The notes beneath the pieces were generated by a model. That model saw nothing but the letters and a program-made list of their open reading frames with translations, searched no databases and was not told the DNA's origin. Below, one piece after another: positions 572-64,000 of a stretch of DNA of 64,000 nucleotides. Made by a program: the position numbers and the translations under genes. The DNA comes from Branchiostoma floridae (Eukaryota; Chordata; Leptocardii; Amphioxiformes; Branchiostomatidae). Within the stretch, counting starts at the first letter, position 1; each line of letters opens with the position of its first letter. The stretch spans positions 28,946,548 to 29,010,547 of the forward strand of contig NC_049982.1 of the NCBI RefSeq assembly GCF_000003815.2, read 5' to 3'.

Positions 572-644
572 CGCCCAACGTGGGGCTCAAACCCACGACC
601 CTGGGATTAAGAGTCCCATGCTCTACCGACTGAGCTAGCCGGGC
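572..644 (-). tRNA. tRNA-Lys (anticodon CTT), possibly defective
   Basis: Read on the minus strand, 644 to 572 gives a 73-nt cloverleaf beginning GCCCGGCTAGCTCAG, with anticodon loop CTCTTAA (anticodon CTT) and an acceptor closing with GTTGGGC plus discriminator G. It is almost identical to the vertebrate tRNA-Lys-CTT. The single obvious change is in the T loop, TTTGA where TTCGA is near universal (position 56 C to T). This also weakens the B box of the internal promoter. A run of six T follows about 7 nt after the 3' end and would serve as a Pol III terminator. There is no encoded CCA, as expected in eukaryotes. It is either a functional variant or a recent pseudogene. Confidence 0.9.
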
Positions 645-5299: not shown

Positions 5300-6845
5300 A
5301 ATCAAACTCATGTCCATGTTAGATACGAGGAAAGTCATGTCCATGTTAGATACGAGGAAAGTCATGTCCATGTTAGATACGAGGAAAGTCATGTCCATGT
5401 TAGATACGAGGAAACTCATGTCCATGTTAGATACGAGGAAACTCATGTCCATGTTAGATACGAGGAAACTCATGTCCATGTTAGATACGAGGAAAGTCAT
5501 GTCCATGTTAGATACGAGGAAAGTCATGTCCATGTTAGATACGAGGAAACTCATGTCCATGTTAGATACGAGGAAACTCATGTCCATGTTCGATACGAGG
5601 AAACTCATGTCCATGTTAGATACGAGGAAAGTCATGTCCATGTTAGATACGAGGAAACTCATGTCCATGTTCGATACGAGGAAACTCATGTCCATGTTAG
5701 ATACGAGGAAACTCATGTCCATGTTAGATACGAGGAAAGTCATGTCCATGTTAGATAGGAGGAAAGTCATGTCCATGTTAGATACGAGGAAAGTCATGTC
5801 CATGTTAGATACGAGGAAAGTCATGTCCATGTTAGATACGAGGAAAGTCATGTCCATGTTAGATACGAGGAAAGTCATGTCCATGTTAGATACGAGGATA
5901 GTCATGTCCATGTTAGATACGACGATAGTCATGTCCATGTTAGATACGAGGATAGTCATGTCCATGTTAGATACGAGGATAGTCATGTCCATGTTAGATA
6001 CGAGGATAGTCATGTCCATGTTAGATACGAGGAAAGTCATGTCCATGTTAGATACGAGGAAAGTCATGTCCATGTTAGATACGAGGAAAGTCATGTCCAT
6101 GTTAGATACGAGGATAGTCATGTCCATGTTAGATACGAGGAAAATCATGTCCATGTTAGATACGAGGAAAGTGATGGCCATGTTAGATACGAGGAAAGTC
6201 ATGTCCATGTGTAGATACGAGGATAGTCATGTCCATGTTAGATACGAGGAAAGTCAGGTCCAGGTTAGATACGAGGAAAGTCATGTCCATGTGTAGATAC
6301 GAGGAAAGTCATGTCCATGTTAGATGCGAGGATAGTCATGTCCATGGTAGATACGAGGAAAGTCATGTCCATGTTAGATACGAGGAAAGTCATGTCCATG
6401 TTAGATACGAGGATAGTCATGTCCATGTTAGATACGACGATAGTCATGTCCATGTTAGATACGAGGATAGTCATGTCCATGTTAGATACGAGGATAGTCA
6501 TGTCCATGTTAGATACGAGGATAGTCATGTCCATGTTAGATACGAGGAAAGTCATGTCCATGTTAGATACGAGGAAAGTCATGTCCATGTTAGATACGAG
6601 GAAAGTCATGTCCATGTTAGATACGAGGATAGTCATGTCCATGTTAGATACGAGGAAAGTCATGTCCATGTTAGATACGAGTATAGTCATATCCATGTTA
6701 GATACGAGGAAACTCATGTCCATGTTAGATACGAGGAAACTCATGTCCATGTTAGATACGAGGAAACTCATGTCCATGTTAGATACGAGGAAAGTCATGT
6801 CCATGTTAGATACGAGGAAAGTCATGTCCATGTTAGATACGATCT
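5300..6845. repeat. 27-bp satellite array (~57 units)
   Basis: Unit is GTTAGATACGAGGAAAGTC plus ATGTCCAT (27 bp), repeated head to tail. Three main variants differ at the AAAGTC / AAACTC / ATAGTC positions. Because 27 is divisible by three and the unit lacks stops in several frames, long ORFs appear on both strands; they are artefacts. Single-base insertions (GTGTAGATAC near 6208 and 6290) break every frame. A block of 19 units with the same order of variants occurs twice (see findings). Confidence 0.95.
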
Positions 6846-36157: not shown

Positions 36158-38862
36158 TCAGTATCCTCTTGCATGTCTCGCACTGTTAAAAACCCTGTCG
36201 ATTTCACCATCCTCCGCAGGCTTCAGCCTCACGTCAATGTACGCGTAGTCTTTCTCGCTCGCCGGCGTCTCGTTCTCGTCTTTGTACTGTCGCTGCATCT
36301 CCGCGAGAAACTTCACCGTGTCCTCGTCCACGAATTCCACCTCCATCTTGAATCTCTCGATCTCCGACTCCCTGAGTCCGAGCCTGATCAGCACCGCGGA
36401 CAGGTACGTCCACCATTTTGTAAAAACCGGCCCGCGAACGTCGCCCCTCGGTAGATGCGAGTACAGGACGTTGCGGAACTGTTTCAACCGGATGACGTCG
36501 AACTCGGGGGACTTCTCGGTGATGAGCGGAGCGCGGTCCCACCCGGGCCAGTCGCCGGGCCGCTGGCCACAAATATGGCGGATGAGATTGAAGAGGAGGT
36601 TGAAGCTGAAGAGGTGGGGGTTACAGGGGATGCCTGACAGGGGGTACAGCTGCTCGTACTCCTGCTGGCCTAGGACTTTCTGGTAACCACCTGTGGGCAA
36701 GAAAAGAGGTTATAAAAGTCCCATACAAACAAATGGCTGCAGTTCCAGTGAGAGTTGAAAGAGGGATGCCTGACAGGGGGTACAGCTGCTCGTACTCCTG
36801 CTGGCCTAGGACTTTCTGGTAACCACCTGTGGGCAAGGAAACAGGTTATAGAAATATTGTACAAGCAATAGCTGCAGTTCCTGTGAGAGATGAAAGAGGG
36901 ATGCCTGACAGGGGGTACAGCTGCTCATACTCCTGCTGGCCTAGGACTTTCTGGTAACCACCTGGGGGAGAGAGAAGAGAAGAGGTTATAGATTGTACAA
37001 GCAACCAAATCGGTGCAGTTCCAGTGAGAGATGAAAGAGGGCTCAAATTTCAGATGTTCCATACTCCTGCTGGCCTAGGACTTTCTGGTAACCACCTGGG
37101 GGAGAGAGAAGAGGTTATAGATTGTACAAGCAACCAAATCGGTGCAGTTCCAGTGAGAGATGAAAGAGGGCTCAAATTTCAGATGTTCCATACTCCTGCT
37201 GGCCCAGGACTTTCTGGTAACCACCTGTGGGCAAGGAAAGAGGTTATAGAAATATTGTAGAAGCAATAGCTGCAGTTCCAGTGAGAGATGAAAGAGGGAT
37301 GCCTGACAGGGGGTACAGCTGCTCGTACTCCTGCTGGCCAAGGACTTTCTGGTAACCACCTGGGGGAAAGAAAAGAGGTTCTAGAAGTCTGTTACAAACA
37401 AATAGCTGCAGTTCCAGTGAGAGATGAAAGATGGCTCAATTTCACTATGAAATAAAAGATTTTCCAGATGTTTTATAGAAACAAACAGCTACATGCAGTT
37501 CAAATGAGGGAATTAAAATTTCACCTCACTGTCTCTTTCAAATTAGACAAAATAACATCAACATAAAACAAAGAAATAGTATAGCAGTATTATAAAAACA
37601 CTTTTAGTGACTTAAAAAACTTTTTGGCTTGTTTTATGTAGCCAAGTTGATTGAAAAGGGTGTAGAGAATAAGATAAAAGTTATTATAATATTATTGCAT
37701 TCTTTCAAGTAAAGAGAGCCTTTATATTACAGATCTTAACTTTATCACAGTTGGTATTGACCAAAAACTGACAAAAATAAAATCTATTACTTGATTCTTA
37801 AGTTCAAAGAAAGTTAAAGTCCTCCCTTTATCAGATGGTGCAAAGGGCGGCGCCCATCTTCATTTCAATAGCCATGGGCCACACAACTCTTTACCAATCG
37901 AGACCTTACCAAATTTGAGATGTCCTAAACAAGTCACATGTTTTACTTGAAGCAGTAGTAAAATTCAGGAACACCTTTTTTTGTTGAAGATGTGATATGG
38001 CATGTATAATGAGATACTGACCTGTACCGAAGCGCAGGTGCTTGAGTAGGGGGCTGTACAGCTGCAGCACATGTCTCAGGTGGTGTGTCCTGAACTCATG
38101 GGTGCAAGGTATGCAGGGATTGTCATAATCATCGCACCTGGGTAGAAGAGATATTAAGAACATGCTTTATGTTTATAATGATTATGTGTGCAAAACTTCA
38201 ACTCAATGTAGCAACTTTTGTATACTCCACTAAAACATTCTGTTGAGAGGGAACGCAAAACAAACAGGCATATACAACATTTGATTTACTATGAGATTAG
38301 CGCCAGAGGCGTCGCCAAAAATTAATATTTGAAGCAAATGACGACGACACAGCCATTAGCGTCCTCTGGCAGAACATGACGAAACTGCACTTCAGAACCA
38401 CACACAAACAGGTGCACAGACTAGAACGGCAACGTTTGCAAGCACATACGTGACGACCTGGACCAGACGGCTGTCACCATGGTTACTGGTAAAATAGCAG
38501 AGACACTAGGTGACACTATGTAGCAAGTGGCAGGACAGCTGTTGAGGCTGGTCTCCATGGTTTGTGTGTATTTCAAGAGTAAGAAAAAACAGCAGTAGGC
38601 TAGACTTTGTGGTGGTAAGCTTTCTAGTTTTTACGTCTTTTTGGTCGCCGCCACCTACGCAAGCTGAAAGGAGAAAACAAAACCTGCAAATAAAGAATGC
38701 GACTCTACTTTGTTAAATCAACATCAAGACTTTGTTTCTTAGGACGTACCTCGGTAAATTGTCCAGCAAGTAGGTAAGTAGTGTAGGCGTTCCCTTCTTG
38801 ATCAGAAGCGCCGCCAGGCGGACGGAGTTGGCATAGTGCTCACTGTAGCGACCGCACGCCAT
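36158..38862 (-). CDS. DZIP3-like HEPN-domain protein (3 exons)
   Basis: Exons: 38862-38750, 38137-38022 and 36690-36158, with consistent phases (AG|G, then G|GT), giving 253 aa. The sequence follows the DZIP3/hRUL138-type HEPN family: NSVRLAALLIKKGTPTLL, CIPCTHEFRTHHLR, LLKHLRFGTGGYQKVLG, then FNLLFNLIRHICG, GWDRAPLITEKS and RLKQFRNVLYSH. The last contains R149-N150-x4-H155, the Rx4-6H signature of potentially active HEPN ribonucleases. No RING or death domain is visible, unlike larger members. HEPN domains often act in RNA cleavage or innate-type signalling; the role here is not known. The third-exon acceptor at 36690/36691 was chosen because only it continues into the HEPN core. Upstream look-alike acceptors exist (see 36745-37365). 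Confidence 0.87.
36745..37365 (-). repeat. Tandem copies of the HEPN gene's 3' splice site and exon head
   Basis: Five upstream copies repeat the start of the last HEPN exon plus the intron sequence before it. Acceptors plus GGTTACCAGAAAGTCCTA read on the minus strand at about 36828, 36963, 37101, 37225 and 37362, spaced about 120-140 bp. Three keep GAGTACGAGCAGCTGTACCC (one with a base change); two (near 37060 and 37190) have this replaced. Each reaches a stop within some tens of codons, so use of an upstream copy would truncate the protein before the HEPN core. Confidence 0.9.
37808..37905 (-). mobile_element. SINE 3' fragment
   Basis: Inverted copy of the 3' part of the SINE at 25878-26170 (GTGTGGCCCATGGCTATTGA, GAAGATGGGCGCCGCCC, GGACTTTAACTTT). 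Confidence 0.65.
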
Positions 38863-42611: not shown

Positions 42612-43916
42612 TCACAGTTCGTCCCGTGGGCCCGGGTCCTCTCCAATTGGCCCGTGCGCCTCTTCTATCCCTCTGGCCACCCTTTTCAGGGTTTCAATGT
42701 CCATCGCTTGTATCTCTTCAGCAGTGATGTACCCCTTCTTGTCCTTATCCATGACGGAAAAGACCTTTCTGACGTGTTCCATATCTTCCTCTCCCAACTC
42801 TTCGCCCTCGTCTTCGTCCAGGATGTTGTGTTCGTAAAGTATCGCGAGTAACTCAGGCGTAAACTTCTCCATGTCTTCTTCCTTCATTAACGTAAGAAAC
42901 GTTTTCCTGATGATTTCCACGTTCATGTACCCCATGTCAATGACCTTGTCACCTTTCTTGTACGTCCACTGGAGCTTGACTTCATTGAACGCCGTGTATG
43001 TGTCAATGTCTCTCGTGGCGCAGTCCGAATCGTTGAACTCTGCGAATGGGTCCCACATGATCGTGGCGGCAACGCTGCGCCCGTACGATCGCACTTGGTG
43101 GAAATAACGCGACGGGATAAAGATACAGTCTCCCGGCTTGAGGGTCGCCCAGGTCCACGGCACCTCTGCAACCTCTGGGTTTTTCACGAGGTCTACTTTG
43201 TCAACGTTCATGTGAGTGAAGCCTGACCCGGATTTCTTCTTGTCAGCCAAGTCTAGTTTGTCTCCGTACTTGTTGTCGATCATGATGAAGTCTTTGCGGC
43301 CGGAGATCAGGCAATGTATGTTGTGGTCGGCGTCGTAGTGTAGAACTGACCTAGTCCCACCGGAAGACAACCACAGGTTTGACTCTAGAATGCTGTCCCT
43401 AAAATTGCCGCAGAGTAGTGAACGAGGAACCTGCATTTCTGCTCTCATGGGATCGGGTAGCAAGGATACCACGTACCACTGCTTGTGGTGGTAGTTGTCT
43501 AAGAACTCGCTCAGTGGCATCCTCAGGCGAACGGGGTGGTGGCGATCTTCGATCTTCTTCTCAATCAGGACGTCCAAGTCTCCATACTTCTCCCTGATGT
43601 AGTCATCACTCTGCCAGTTGGCGACCGCTGGGGCCTTGGCGATGGCTTGCCTGTACACGAGGGGTACGTAGGGTTCCCTGGCATGCTGTTCCCAGAACTC
43701 TGTCGGAGTCAGCGGCTGTGTGTACTCCTTCACGGGTCCTTCGGGTTCCCTTTGGTAGCCCAGCGGTAACAGGTGGCCGACTGGGAGTCCGGGCTCGCTC
43801 GGTAGGAGGGTGGGGGGAAACACAACGTCCTCGCTGCCCTCACCGTTGACAAAAATACTTCCCAACCACAACACGGAAGTAAATGTCCAAAACAGCACCG
43901 CCTTCTTTAGGGCCAT
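42612..43916 (-). CDS. ER-lumenal JmjC/cupin oxygenase with EF hand, intronless
   Basis: A single uninterrupted 434-aa ORF. It starts with a signal peptide (MALKKAVLFWTFTSVLWLGS, cleavage probably near 25). A cupin_8-type JmjC domain covers about 70-300: the iron ligands H193-Y-D195 in SVLHYDADHNIH and H273 in SRYFHQVRS are present, along with the family word LSSGGTRS and R281, which may bind 2-oxoglutarate. Near the C terminus is an EF-hand-like loop, D390-KDKKGYITAE-E401 (position 5 is Lys, so calcium binding may be weak). The protein ends RDEL, a KDEL-type ER retrieval signal. Together these suggest a 2-oxoglutarate/Fe(II) hydroxylase of the ER lumen; the substrate is unknown. Absence of introns contrasts with its neighbours. 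Confidence 0.93.
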   Translation of the reverse strand: MALKKAVLFWTFTSVLWLGSIFVNGEGSEDVVFPPTLLPSEPGLPVGHLLPLGYQREPEGPVKEYTQPLTPTEFWEQHAREPYVPLVYRQAIAKAPAVANWQSDDYIREKYGDLDVLIEKKIEDRHHPVRLRMPLSEFLDNYHHKQWYVVSLLPDPMRAEMQVPRSLLCGNFRDSILESNLWLSSGGTRSVLHYDADHNIHCLISGRKDFIMIDNKYGDKLDLADKKKSGSGFTHMNVDKVDLVKNPEVAEVPWTWATLKPGDCIFIPSRYFHQVRSYGRSVAATIMWDPFAEFNDSDCATRDIDTYTAFNEVKLQWTYKKGDKVIDMGYMNVEIIRKTFLTLMKEEDMEKFTPELLAILYEHNILDEDEGEELGEEDMEHVRKVFSVMDKDKKGYITAEEIQAMDIETLKRVARGIEEAHGPIGEDPGPRDEL

Positions 43917-46974: not shown

Positions 46975-49900
46975 ATGCAGGAAGCCCAAGAAGACAACCT
47001 TCACCAGACCTTACTGGATCTGAAGGTGAAAACCTCTGTTTTAGAGGTTCCACAGGTGGAGCGGGAAAAGATGACCAGTAGGACCATGGAGATGGTCAAC
47101 ACGTATGATGACAACATCAGAAACCTGACCTGGGGACCGGTCAAGACATCGGACCAGGGAAGTCTTCCAGCTGTTGACGAAATTGAGGAAGGTCCATCTG
47201 AATATGGTATGGTGAAAAGAATTTTCATACTTGTGTGTAGACCGCTGCCTATGTGTCCACATTGTATTGCCCTTGTTGCAATTTGAATAAATAAAGGAAA
47301 TATAGTAGACAAAAAATAACGGTATGGCAGAATTGCCGCAGAAAGATTACTTTTTTTGCTAAGGAGGTTTCAGATCGTACTCCAGAACAAAGCTGATACA
47401 AAGAAGTTGAAAGAACTAACTTTTCTGTAGTATTTTCCAATTAATTATGATATTTTTCACAGTTTAGTGTGGTTTACAAGATGACAGAACTGAACAAAAT
47501 CACGTGTCAGAAAATGTGACTCCCTGCTTTTCTTTGATGGAAACATAACTGAGTTCACCCTTAGCAACGGCCTTAGCAAAACTTTTGCTAATGATTATGA
47601 ACATTTTTCTTCACTATGAACAACGTTGTACATCTCAACACGTATTCCTCATACNNNNNNNNNNNNNNNNNNNNNNNNNNNNNNNNNNNNNNNNNNNNNN
47701 NNNNNNNNNNNNNNNNNNNNNNNNNNNNNNNNNNNNNNNNNNNNNNNNNNNNNNNNNNNNNNNNNNNNNNNNNNNNNNNNNNNNNNNNNNNNNNNNNNNN
47801 NNNNNNNNNNNNNNNNNNNNNNNNNNNNNNNNNNNNNNNNNNNNNNNNNNNNNNNNNNNNNNNNNNNNNNNNNNNNNNNNNNNNNNNNNNNNNNNNNNNN
47901 NNNNNNGATATTGTCCCTATAAGCTGGCAGATGTGTCATTGTTCACATGGGGGATATGAGGATACCTGAAAATGAATTACCTTGATTTTACATTCTTTTT
48001 AATTTTTTACTCTATAACGTCCTTTAGTAGATCACTGCGTATATATCTATCTAGTATATCATACACAATGAAAAAGGCTCCTTATGGGGATGACAGGACT
48101 CCACATATGTGGCACCATTTAATACGTGTACACGGCACGTGGATGCAGGACTACGTCATGCATATTGAAAATTTATCTAGAAACAAGACCATAAGAAGGG
48201 TCCAGAACAAGGCTACTCTGAGATGAATACAAGTACATTGTAATTTTCTTGATCAAGTTCTCTGACGCATAATTTCGCTCCTGCCATCTTGATAGAAATG
48301 TGACAGTCTTGTTGACTTTTGTACAAAAGAGGGTAATCTTAAGAAAATAAAATTTAATGAGAAAACCAAGCAAACTATGCTGAGGTCGGAAGGTTGGGGT
48401 CGGTCATTCTTTGTGATTACGTATGTGGAACTATGAACAGTCATATGATTAAAGCCCTAGAGTTTTCTTCGTTATTGAGGTTTGGGGCCACCCTAAGAGG
48501 CCCTCGAAAATCAAGTTACCGTCGAAAATTACTGAAATTGCTACGGCTACCCTCATAAGATGCTCAAACAGAATCACGTTGTACAGTACTACGGCACAAG
48601 AAGAATTCTGTACTTTACTTTGTGTACAGATGGCAAGTGAGCTGCACGACAATTTATGCAGGCTATGGTCCGTACAGTTACGGCCCATGCACTCATATTC
48701 ATGGCACGGCCGTTTGTGTAACAGATCATTGTCAGTGCAGGAGATTAATTTAGTCACGTACAGGCATATCTGTTGGATCCGGACATTCAAAACAAGGCAA
48801 GGGGCCAATTATCATGCAAGTTCATTCAGTGTTCCGCATAGTATCTCATTCATAGCAAATAAAGTCATATTACCCGTCTAGATAGCTTCTAATTCATTAC
48901 CAATATCATAAATGTTACCAAGTATGATTAAGAAACTGTTAGAATTGAATGAGAAGTAGATTTAATCGAAAGGTGTTGCTATCGCGTAGTAAAACCCGAC
49001 AGGCCAACACCCCATGGCAGGATAGAAGCCCTGCTGTACATTTGCATATATATTAGGAGAGTCTTAATGAACAAGGCATTCGACCATTCCCTTCTTTACC
49101 GTCACCCCAGCATGGTCCGTACCGTGCTTATCTATGTAAACATTTACAAGTTACAAAAGCAGAACCGAGCGGTATGCAGGTCGCAAATGTTTACTGTTTT
49201 GTCCCATGACCATGACATGACCATGACCATTGCCGTACCAGTAACAGCTTGTGTACAAATATTCATGCCATGAATCTTTGTTTAACAGATCATTATCGGT
49301 GTTGAAGAAGTCACGCAGAAGCATATCTGTTAGATCTGGACGCTAAAAGCTATGCTTTGGTGTTACGCATTGTAACATCTCGTTTCGAGGAAAAAGAGCC
49401 GTTCTTACACTTTTAAACAACTGCTACTTAAGCTTCATAATCAATATCATAAGCGTAACTAAGTATGATGAATAGTGTTGGAATTGAATCAGAAGCAGGC
49501 AACCTAAGCAATATCACAATGTTAAAAGTGGAAATATTCTGAATAAGGCAGTCTGTATAATATTGACATCTAATGCACTATTTTAGCACGTTTACATCAT
49601 TATTTCATAAATTGAGCCGTTAAAAACAGCACGGGAATGAGTTGCACAAGGATTCCAGATCAAGTCCTTATTTTTGGGGGGTGCAATAACTAGGAATATC
49701 CTCGTGCAACTTGTCTCTGCGCTGTTTTTAACCACTCAAAGTATCAAATTATTATGTAAATGTGAGAATACAGTGCAGTAGATGTCAATATCATGCAAAT
49801 TGCCTTATTCAGAATATTTCCACTTTGACGCTGTAATATTGCTTAGGTTGCCTTTAAGTTCCGTTCGAGTTGTGATAAAAATTTTGAGGTCATGTGCCGT

Positions 49901-57483: not shown

Positions 57484-57793
57484 TACCCTTAAGGTTATAT
57501 CACTCAGTTCACCAAATGAACGCGCCTCCAAGTGTTTCCAAGCTCAACTAATTCGGTTGCCGCAGACCAAAAATAAGGTGTTGAACGTTAGGAATTTCAT
57601 ATTTTTGACACATTTCACTCAGGATTATGTAAGATGTTAACCTAATCCTGAGTGAAATGTATGTCAAAAATATAAAAATTCCTAACGTTTACCACTAACA
57701 TCTTACTAAGTATTCATGGTCTATTGCAACCGAATTAGTTGAGCTTAGAAAGACGCGTTCCTTTGGTGAAATGAGTGATATAACCTTAAGGGC
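57484..57793. repeat. Large palindrome, ~150-bp arms
   Basis: CCCTTAAGGTTATATCACTC opens the left arm and is inverted at the right end. Arms continue through AAGCTCAACTAATTCGGTTG and TTTCACTCAGGATTA, with a spacer of about 15 nt. Arms differ by scattered changes and small indels. Non-coding. Confidence 0.88.
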
Positions 57794-60335: not shown

Positions 60336-61289
60336 GCTATTAGTACAGGAGCCAGACCCTGAAAAAAATGATTTCGTTGCACCCACTTTACAGAAAAGGT
60401 TTGACCTAATTTTGTGGTAGAGGGGTCTTTGGTCCATCACCCAGCATGATTTTTATGCCCAAATTGTGGTATCACTTTTTTGCTAGCGAAGCATTAAGGT
60501 AGAACACTTAAACTGCATAAGCGAAAAATTCATTTTTCAAAGGGGGAGGGGCAAAAAATTAAACATCAATGATTTTCGATGAAAATTGGTAGGCATATAA
60601 AACTTTTCATTGGAATTACAAAAAAAAAAAAATGTTTCCCAAAATTGTACTTTGGTGTAAAATTATGGCCCTAAAAAGTTCATTTTTTAAGCAATTTTGG
60701 TACTAAAAAACGAGATGTTGACGTTACATAATCAGGCAATTATTTGTGTCACTTATGGGGCCTTGTTTGATACAATATTTGGAATGGCCTAAATATTCAC
60801 ATTATTCTAACCTTAAAATCATCGAATTCCGACTTTTCTATAAAAAGATATGAGCGTTTGAAGAATTACTTACCCTCAAGGCTATTGTCGGAAAAGCGTT
60901 GCTAGGGCCGTTGCTAAGGATGGTCTAGAAGGCTTTCCCACATAAATACGACTCCAGAACTAACTTTTGTGTCGTAATTTGCCGTAGTTATCTCAGTAGA
61001 AGTGTTAGGAAAGTTGTGGTAATGTAAAACATTTAACAGATGCATGAATATTGCGTTTGAATGTCATTTATTTCACAAACAAACAAACAAACAAACAAAC
61101 AAACAAGAATCATCAGCAAAATTGTTGCTAAGCCCGTTGCTAAGTGGGTAGTCATCATGTTTTAAGCAAAATACAGCAGAGAATCAAGATTTCTGACATA
61201 TTCTGCTCATTTCATATTGTGACCCATACATTACTTAAAATATCATCATCTATTGATGATATTGATTGATCAGAAATTTATTTTGGGCT
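60336..61289. other. Spacer with dispersed-repeat remnants
   Basis: GTTGCTAGGGCCGTTGCTAAGG (60900) and GTTGCTAAGCCCGTTGCTAAG (61122) relate to TTAGCAACGGCCTTAGCAAAA near 47561. A (CAAA)n tract is at 61077-61107. No gene. Confidence 0.5.
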
Positions 61290-61475
61290 CTACATGGGGG
61301 ATATAAGGATACTTGAAAAGGAATTACGCTGATTTTTCTCATTTTCATTGTTGCTCTCTAATGCCATTATGCAGGTACATGTGTACCTTACTAAATAACT
61401 GCTTATATCTACTATGTGGAACACAATGAAAAGGTTCTACATGGGGGTTTTCAGGGCACCACAAAGGTGATAACG
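61290..61475. repeat. Dispersed repeat, copy 2
   Basis: ACATGGGGGATATAAGGATACTTG and CACAATGAAAAGGTTC match 47940-48125. Confidence 0.6.
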
Positions 61476-61925
61476 TTGACTACATAGGAAAAATGGATAC
61501 AGAAATATACAACATGTTGAAAATCTATGTAGATACACAAAGTACTACGGTAGTAATACACATAATATGTACATTTGTGTGACAATAGTATTTTTAGAAT
61601 GAATGCACGTACATTGTACTTTTCTATGGGTGTACTGTGTAGTACTGGTGTGCTGCTATTGACAAGCTGCGGTACATACATACAGTACATTCTGTATAGG
61701 TGAACAATCGGTTTCCCAGGGGTAAATAATTTACACTAATTCTTTATTGACAAAGCCATTGCTATGGTGGCCTCTACGATCAATGTTGTGTGTAATCTGA
61801 ACACATTTTCGTCTACCTTTCTTTTCACTTGGAGTTTGACAATTGTCTTTCACAACTTAGTTAGTGATATATGAAATAACATATATGAAACTGGCAAAGA
61901 ACCAAACTAAGTACATCATCATCAT

Positions 61926-64000
61926 TTAAACACTGCTGGCCATGTCCACTAGTTTGTTTGGATTTTGGCAGTCGCACCCCATGCATTTACATGACTCCGT
62001 GCATGCTAGACCATGCACCCTGCATGAGCAATTAGCTCGACTACATGAAGTTGTACAACTGCATGTGTTCAACTCAATCAGACTCTTTGGCGCCGGATCC
62101 TTAGACATCAGGAGTGGAACTAGCACTGTCCCCTTGTCTTCCCAGCCGTGGCCATCTGGTTTGGGCATCTTCTGCATTCCTTTCAGTGACCTCCTCCACA
62201 GGCATGTTTGGTATGCACACCTTTGTAAGTGATGTCGTAGGCTGTTGGAAGTTGGTGGAAGTGCTTCATTCCTTTGTTTCTTCTGGCAGAAGATGAAGTA
62301 CCGCAATTCCTCCGTAGTGCACGGAGCTTTTCCGGATTCATAGAGATCACAGACAAAGTTCTCGCTATTCCTGAAGCACTCTTCTCCCAGCTTTGGTTCT
62401 TGACCAAAGACCGCCAAGTTGGACTGATGCTCAGGATTCTGGCGCAGAACGGACAACGCTTTCTTCTTCCCGATCCCATGAAAGCTCCCAGTTGAGTCAC
62501 AGCCAGTTATTGCATGAAATGCTGGTAGTGCCTGGCATAGTTGAGGTCCCAGCGACTGACTCAAACTGTGTACTGGTATGTACCTTGCCTTATCTTTAAC
62601 CCCTGTCCTGAACCATAGCTCGTCACAACCCAGCTCACTGCAGAATGACGTGCAGAGGACAGCTACATCGGTGTCGGGAGAATTGACAACTATACGTCTG
62701 CACTCTCTTGCAGCGTCTTGAACATGCAGCAGTATCCTTGTGTCGGCCTCCTCATGGTCTGAATAGAGGCACTTGAGATCTTCCGTGTGATTGTTTGTTA
62801 CCATTATAGCTCTTTGGCCATCTTCCAAGCCACCTCCTACGACTATCTTCTGACCAGGTTGAAGATGGCTCATTCCTAGTTCACAGAAACTTTGTGTCAG
62901 ATACGCAGATAGATTCTCCTTGTTCTTGGGATTGGCCACGTATTTCTTCCACTGTTTCGGTGTCGGTGTGGTGTGACCCTGAATCTTGACTTCAAGCGTA
63001 CTTTGCTGATCTCTTCGCTGTCTTTCTCCATCTTTGATGCTCGTCTTGTTGTATTGGTCGAACACCACGTCCACTCTTTGGCATTGCTGTCCGAGGTTCG
63101 ACGTCAGCATCCTGTAATGTAGCGTAGCCAGATCACCAAATAAAGCTGCACCTCCTGTCCCTACCGCCTGAATCGTGGCCATTCCATCAGAGATGTATGC
63201 AGTAGATATGTCATTTGTAACAGGTAAGCGTGCATGTACTTGAACTTCTTTCTCCAACTCTGACAGCAGCACACTTTTGCACGTCTTCCTCATCGTACCG
63301 TCGGGATGCACCAAGGAGAGAGGGACCGCGCACAGTTCGTAGGTTAGGACTTCTTTCAGGTCAATCTGACGAGACCTGGCTGCGATTACAAGACGACCGA
63401 ACAAATCGCGATCAGCACTGATTGTAACTACCTTCTCATTGGTAGTCATTCTCCTTTTTTGTGAAAGGGAGTGGAAGGTCTTGATCTTGAGGTGAGGTAA
63501 CGGCTCCCAAAAGCCTTTCTCGTTTGAATCGAGTCGTTGCCTCACAAACGTGGAGCATTGTTGTAGACCTATCTCATACGCACTGATCAGTCGTACGGCT
63601 GCGTCTTCAGGCATCACGACGCCAGTCGCGAAGTTTATCAGTGGGTGAATGTCTTGACTGACATCGACACAAAACGGATTTGTCATCAGTCCCACTTCGA
63701 ACATCGCCCGCATCTTTCGCACGTCGTCCTCATCTCTCTTTACCCTTCCGTCCCTGGCTTCTTTATGCGTGGCAATCAGGTCAGAATCGGCAATGCCGCA
63801 CATTTCTTTGAGCGCCGTCACCACTGCCACCCTTTCGTGTACCGTTGCAAACCATCGCTCAAGGGCGCCAGGCCTTTGGCTGATACCCACGATGCCCCCG
63901 CTGGTCTTGGAGTCTAGATTAATAGATTGTTCGAGGGCCATGTCCGTCCATACCTTTGCGAAGGGTTGGTTAGACCGGGAAATGGCATGGTCGCCGGCCA
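61926..64000 (-). CDS. FEN1/XPG-like nuclease plus CXC domain ORF (5' end outside window)
   Basis: The frame is open from the right edge to the stop TAA at 61926-61928. The first ATG is at 63941, but codons upstream (HAISRSNQPFAKVWTD) read as the same conserved protein, so the window holds only part. Numbering from that ATG gives 671 aa. Acidic motifs lie in FEN1/XPG order: ISD252GMATIQAV, VDVVFD295QYNKTSIKDGER (compare FEN1 VFDGKPPxLKxxE), HEEAD400TRIL, SPD423TD425VAVL, and ITGCD482STGSFHGIGKKKAL, which mirrors the helix-hairpin-helix GCDYTPGIPGIG of FEN1. The C terminus (627-658) is a cysteine-rich Tesmin/TSO1-type CXC half (TCSCTTSC...CKCMGCDC). Similar long ORFs occur in many copies in some invertebrate genomes, which suggests a mobile or domesticated origin. 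The intact frame suggests recent activity or selection. Confidence 0.88.
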   Translation of the reverse strand, partial: AGDHAISRSNQPFAKVWTDMALEQSINLDSKTSGGIVGISQRPGALERWFATVHERVAVVTALKEMCGIADSDLIATHKEARDGRVKRDEDDVRKMRAMFEVGLMTNPFCVDVSQDIHPLINFATGVVMPEDAAVRLISAYEIGLQQCSTFVRQRLDSNEKGFWEPLPHLKIKTFHSLSQKRRMTTNEKVVTISADRDLFGRLVIAARSRQIDLKEVLTYELCAVPLSLVHPDGTMRKTCKSVLLSELEKEVQVHARLPVTNDISTAYISDGMATIQAVGTGGAALFGDLATLHYRMLTSNLGQQCQRVDVVFDQYNKTSIKDGERQRRDQQSTLEVKIQGHTTPTPKQWKKYVANPKNKENLSAYLTQSFCELGMSHLQPGQKIVVGGGLEDGQRAIMVTNNHTEDLKCLYSDHEEADTRILLHVQDAARECRRIVVNSPDTDVAVLCTSFCSELGCDELWFRTGVKDKARYIPVHSLSQSLGPQLCQALPAFHAITGCDSTGSFHGIGKKKALSVLRQNPEHQSNLAVFGQEPKLGEECFRNSENFVCDLYESGKAPCTTEELRYFIFCQKKQRNEALPPTSNSLRHHLQRCAYQTCLWRRSLKGMQKMPKPDGHGWEDKGTVLVPLLMSKDPAPKSLIELNTCSCTTSCSRANCSCRVHGLACTESCKCMGCDCQNPNKLVDMASSV

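Follow-up and report, generated by a model that had tools for sequence, protein, structure and literature searches.

AcademX is reportedly a lineage of the Academ DNA transposons, treated by Kapitonov and Jurka in 2010 and by Kojima in 2020, and its nuclease is of the XPG type. The excerpts of PMC10045372, where the wording is only 'nuclease', give target site duplications (TSDs) of 3 or 4 bp for AcademX and of 9 or 10 bp for AcademH and tie these lengths to the encoded nuclease and helicase, and those of PMC9587614 list Academ among the superfamilies having a DDD/E transposase. In the literature searched, 'Academ' and 'XPG' did not occur together, each as a whole word, in any paper.

We report that an open reading frame (ORF) in the lancelet Branchiostoma floridae very probably represents the C-terminal half of the protein encoded by a DNA transposon of autonomous type that has moved recently; this transposon probably belongs to the Academ superfamily and there to an AcademX-like lineage. 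The window, i.e. the whole stretch of 64,000 nucleotides that was analysed, corresponds to C4:28946548-29010547, and the genome searched comprised 513.4 Mb in 431 contigs. An earlier note, made from the letters of the window, had described a long intact ORF running past the window edge, with a FEN1/XPG-type metal site and a CXC tail, and had taken it as the possible engine of a mobile element or as a domesticated host factor, in either case an undescribed system.

The ORF at 61926..64000 on the minus strand encodes 671 amino acids from the first ATG in the window and is open at the window edge (690 amino acids; numbering in the 690-residue frame equals that in the 671-residue frame plus 19). 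Both its length and its continuation beyond 64000 were borne out, since in the genome it extends uninterrupted to 1513 amino acids (window 61926..66467, end at 61926). The residues named in the earlier note, D252, VFD295, EEAD400, DTD425 and GCD482, then GIG and the cysteine tail, were all found in the 671-residue numbering. That the ORF is more than chance follows from the second copy also having 1513 amino acids, from dN being lower than dS and from the conservation of the acidic columns in relatives. The features of the ORF and its surroundings are (window coordinates):

61926..64000, minus strand: 3' part of the 1513-amino-acid ORF, which as a whole spans 61926..66467
63930..63944, minus strand: DMALE (D842..E846), whose D and E do not vary across the 11 rows of alignment A2
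62319..63251, minus strand: FEN/XPG-type nuclease core, residues 250-560 of the in-window frame, predicted from profile comparison and permutation controls
63186..63188, minus strand: metal-site acid 1, D271 of the 690-residue frame (D252 in the 671-residue frame); D in 10, E in 8 and N in 1 of 19 lettered rows
63057..63059, minus strand: metal-site acid 2, VFD (D314); D in 17/17 lettered rows
62742..62753, minus strand: metal-site acids EE-A-D (E416, E417, D419); E in 18/18, E in 18/18 and D in 17/18 lettered rows
62667..62675, minus strand: metal-site acids DTD (D442, D444); D in 18/19 and 17/19 lettered rows
62496..62498, minus strand: metal-site acid TGCD (D501), followed by G.GK (GIGKKKAL); D in 16/17 lettered rows
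61968..62063, minus strand: C-terminal CXC-like domain with 10 Cys, residues 646-677, assigned from the cysteine spacing and from the relative L040 (24.1 bits to PF03638)
61743..61748, minus strand: AATAAA, putative polyadenylation signal past the stop codon, read from the sequence

The acid columns were counted in a 23-row alignment (A1). Its rows are not independent, since among them are several from a single place or nearly identical to one another. Leaving aside D or E at acid 1, the departures are confined to rows L020, L026 and L035, where the frame is lost or misaligned. For the profile we used 15 core rows including the window; L020, L022, L026, L032 and L035 were left out by choice because they were broken, overlapped or had gaps, and L029, L031:1411 and L033 because they had <200 residues. 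Compared with five FEN/XPG sequences this profile gave a probability of 93.8 and a score of 58.7, the best of 200 column permutations being 26.8. With three PDB-checked sequences the values were 92.3 and 54.9 with EXO1 as reference row (200 permutations, ≤20.5) and 86.4 and 48.6 with Pyrococcus FEN1 as reference row, and as a control, three regions from elsewhere in the proteins of this family scored 15.5-22.0 against FEN/XPG. In the profile alignment VFD, DTD and GCD are in register with the FEN1/EXO1 acids, the window GCD being aligned to GTD in FEN1 and to GCD in EXO1, and the E-A-D pair is in part unaligned.

The tests on a single sequence were weaker. Here, hhalign scored 32.5, with 23.2 (core) and 30.0 (full ORF) as the best of 200 shuffles, and an ordered-block motif test, which is weak and misplaced the blocks, gave 29.8, a score reached by 17 of 1000 shuffles and by 0 of 43 real ORFs (best 29.0). 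Pfam gave no match in the window part of the protein at E≤1, searches of PHROGs, NCBIfam, PDB and Pfam with the protein returned no convincing family, and the 23-row profile had 0 matches against PDB up to E 10. Single-sequence structure models of the 690-residue frame and of the 311-residue core had mean pLDDT values of 34.0 and 32.8, respectively, and were unusable. It is the family profile that is decisive: as judged from it, the core is related to FEN/XPG at the family level with its metal-site acids conserved, which supports the metal site proposed earlier, and when conservation was checked across homologues EE.D, DTD and GCD were near-invariant with D or E at acid 1. The core shares with FEN1/EXO1/XPG (Rad2) the acid order D..VFD..E-A-D..D-x-D..GCD and the G-x-G hairpin that follows; the E-A-D motif is equal to that of EXO1, and TGCD..G.GK resembles EXO1 SGCDYLSSLRGIG. 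The window core differs from these enzymes in its large divergence and in being embedded in a 1513-amino-acid transposon protein.

We also considered that the FEN/XPG-like core may have lost its nuclease function and instead serve the transposase structurally or in DNA binding. Acid 1 is E in 8 of the 19 lettered rows, and the DUF6589 clade (see below) is on its own unrecognised by the FEN/XPG profile (probability 1.5, score 22.3, not above the negative controls), the remaining rows including the window scoring 51.2. However, EE.D, DTD and GCD are near-invariant even in distant relatives, the exceptions being L020, L026 and L035, and dN is well below dS, and we therefore find loss of nuclease function unlikely and refer to the core in what follows as a nuclease by homology.

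The CXC domain of Tesmin/TSO1 proteins has the cysteine pattern C-x-C-x3/4-C-x4-C-x-C-x6-C-x3-C-x-C-x2-C. The tail of the ORF shares this spacing with the Tesmin/TSO1-like CXC domain (PF03638), its 10 Cys at residues 646-677 fitting it, in keeping with the CXC tail of the earlier note, though Pfam PF03638 was unmatched in the window part of the protein at E≤1. Of the 23 rows 16 extend into the tail, and the first seven Cys are retained in each of these; L022 and L031:2155, which are from one place where the frame ends earlier, align other residues in these columns and five rows have few letters there or none. PF03638 was detected at E≤0.011 in four of eight relatives scanned, one of which, L040, lies above the cut-off of 23.5 (24.1 bits); a longer frame at the L040 place scored 21.2 bits, i.e. 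below it.

The ORF lies within an element of 8543 bp, window 60341..68883 (C4:29006888-29015430), as delimited by alignment of two copies, paired termini and the TSD. Its parts in the window are:

60341..64000, minus strand: in-window part of the 8543-bp DNA transposon, delimited as above
60338..60340, no strand: left copy of the TSD, TAT, 3 bp; the right copy lies just past 68883, beyond the window
60341..60955, plus strand: left terminal inverted repeat, 615 bp, starting TAGTACAGGAGCC, 97.6% identical to the right one

The right terminal inverted repeat, beyond the window, is 625 bp. The second copy, on C8, is 9085 bp long with inverted repeats of 614 and 625 bp (97.4% identical), and both copies start with TAGTACAGGAGCC and finish with its complement; identity between the two copies is 99.1% across 6186 alignment columns, 99.7% across 1958 and 96.9% across the final 819. 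A search with the terminal 164 bases (window 60337-60500) gave at least 41 matches in the genome (40 of 68 candidates were scored, hence the lower bound), and 18 of these, 5.9-13.1 kb apart and in opposite orientation, pair into 9 elements. In all nine an exact 3-bp duplication is situated directly outside the termini: TAT on C4, GTA on C8, GTA on C3, ATT on C12, TAT on C6, TAA on C10, ATA on C14, TCA on C9 and TGA on C16. Moreover, when the C8 flanks are joined with one GTA, all 300 bases are identical to C9:5340900-5341199, and C7, C10 and C6 have matches of 298-300 bases at 98-99%. The C9 match is an empty target site within a repeat, and because the joined flanks match it without interruption, insertion is shown for the C8 copy. 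Near-identical copies at two different sites, the inverted repeats, the 3-bp duplications and the empty site together show insertion. The view of the ORF as the engine of a mobile element is thereby upheld, and the shared terminal repeats and target duplications that were to be looked for were found.

In the C4 and C8 copies (L014-L017) the left and right repeats carry sequence variants at their outer ends, and between the two copies these variants have changed sides with respect to the coding interior, as would result from inversion of the interior through recombination of the repeats or from an exchange of the ends. The C8 copy (L016, L017) also has an internal duplication of about 510 bp spanning the ORF start.

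The C8 ORF, likewise a 1513-amino-acid frame, differs from the C4 ORF by 22 bases and 7 residues (dN 0.0020, dS 0.0148), and comparison with a C6 fragment of 262 codons, of which 175 residues are identical, gave dN 0.22 and dS 1.46. As dN is lower than dS in both comparisons, these data indicate past selection on the protein. Counting genomic copies, as had been proposed, gave at least 42 matches in a protein search, one of them the near-identical copy on another contig and others further diverged, some with stops; the relatives are mostly 17-34% identical to the 1513-amino-acid protein, with one fragment at 61%. Among the matches listed, C4 and C8 are the only two of the nine paired elements having a protein match, and seven related elements without one share the termini, being 87-96% identical to the C4 element over the terminal 164 bases; the interiors of these seven may carry other genes. 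At 12 end loci of sufficient length they match the first ~1130 bases of the C4 element with 73-75% identity. A relative on C13 (18874004-18881246) has 599-bp inverted repeats that are 94% identical, and a 4-bp duplication, ATAT, is one reading of its ends, though an ambiguous one because the palindrome falls within the matched repeat. In the region around relative L021 (C4:20945001-20962000), examined for ends, long inverted repeats were not found. Relatives were not found in phage records, IMG/VR or GTDB contigs, and tblastn of 10 pattern-matched loci gave the seeded motif or chance-level matches only.

A long intact ORF with dN lower than dS would also be expected of a domesticated host gene, as the earlier note had allowed. 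This is contradicted by the intact inverted repeats, the target duplications and the empty site, as well as by the near-identical copy on another contig and the diverged copies, some of which have stops. We rejected this reading, since the termini are kept, the gene is not single copy and TSDs are present together with an empty site, and consider it scarcely credible; the ORF is treated below as that of a transposon.

With respect to the rest of the window, two pieces at 47438-48017 match positions 768-915 (71%) and 952-1021 (81%) of the element in opposite orientations, flanking an assembly gap, and are probably a decayed relative. Nested inverted repeats at 57486-57792 form a palindrome-like unit of about 300 bp, possibly a small inverted-repeat element. 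Other features are an intact gene for a 434-amino-acid Cupin_8/JmjC-type protein with an EF-hand-like C-terminus (42612-43916, minus strand), a HEPN_DZIP3 domain (36158-36700, minus strand, E 3.5e-23), a 27-bp tandem repeat with 57 copies and 96% matches that is open in several frames on both strands (5304-6842), and a tRNA-Lys (CTT) gene (572-644, minus strand).

Of the N-terminal half, the last acidic motif is the one part that falls within the window. For this half, the Pfam family DUF6589 (PF20231) was over the cut-off in four of the eight relatives scanned (L037, L040, L045 and L047; 1.2e-11 to 2e-8), upstream of the same FEN/XPG-type core, and a fifth gave 0.024. On the N-terminal 858 residues of the 1513-amino-acid protein itself DUF6589 gave E=0.076, below the cut-off. 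In an 11-row alignment (A2) D593, H622, D842 and E846 are invariant, which is compatible with an RNase H-type transposase, no proof of one, and the DMALE motif may supply the final catalytic acid if the protein has a transposase of DDE type. The genome has 55 DUF6589 matches, of which by eye 8 are at places matched by the 1513-amino-acid protein, and further DUF6589 lineages are therefore present. No paper naming DUF6589 was found in the literature searched, and our data suggest that this family marks transposon proteins of an AcademX-like kind.

Given the nuclease-like core, the 3-bp duplications and the one long protein, the element is a probable new family of AcademX type, placed by architecture and TSD length with AcademX compared by description. 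It shares with AcademX an encoded nuclease, here by homology only, and terminal inverted repeats (615/625 bp in the C4 element), and its 3-bp TSD agrees with the 3 or 4 bp in the PMC10045372 excerpts. Taken together, the inverted repeats, 3-bp TSDs, DUF6589-related upstream half and nuclease agree with what those excerpts state for AcademX. An AcademH placement was rejected, the TSD being 3 bp and not 9-10 bp and a nuclease being present. The claim of an undescribed system was not supported, as a nuclease with 3-4-bp duplications is already stated for AcademX in the same excerpts.

It is also conceivable that the element represents a different, unnamed superfamily, which acquired a FEN/XPG nuclease independently so that the likeness to AcademX is a parallel one. 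The likeness rests on description and not on sequence, the N-terminal part of the 1513-amino-acid protein matches DUF6589 at only E=0.076, and according to PMC9587614 there are Kolobok lineages with diverse accessory nucleases. Against this, the nuclease and the 3-bp TSDs agree with the AcademX statements in the PMC10045372 excerpts, and L040 and L037, both with clear DUF6589 matches, align with the 1513-amino-acid protein over about residues 583 to 1498. We hold independent acquisition to be improbable and favour the AcademX-like placement.

For such an AcademX-like element we envisage a cut-and-paste mode of transposition, rather than another route, in which the DUF6589-related N-terminal half probably forms a DDE-type transposase that would bind the ~620-bp inverted repeats, excise the element and insert it with a 3-bp stagger. 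DNA binding is the probable role of the CXC tail. The FEN/XPG-type domain probably removes flaps or branches from the staggered ends while the element is excised or the gap is repaired, a role that would fit the short duplication and be in line with the remark in the PMC10045372 excerpts. Related elements having near-identical termini and no 1513-amino-acid protein were probably moved in trans.

Finally, the role of a FEN-type nuclease in transposition becomes testable with this element of AcademX type, which moved recently and for which the precise ends, the TSDs and an empty site are available. We put forward, as a tentative suggestion about which we have more doubt than confidence, that the FEN/XPG nuclease, and not the transposase alone, sets the 3-bp stagger by flap trimming and that in such proteins the transposase half corresponds to DUF6589. 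If true, a captured repair enzyme would be a working part of transposition.
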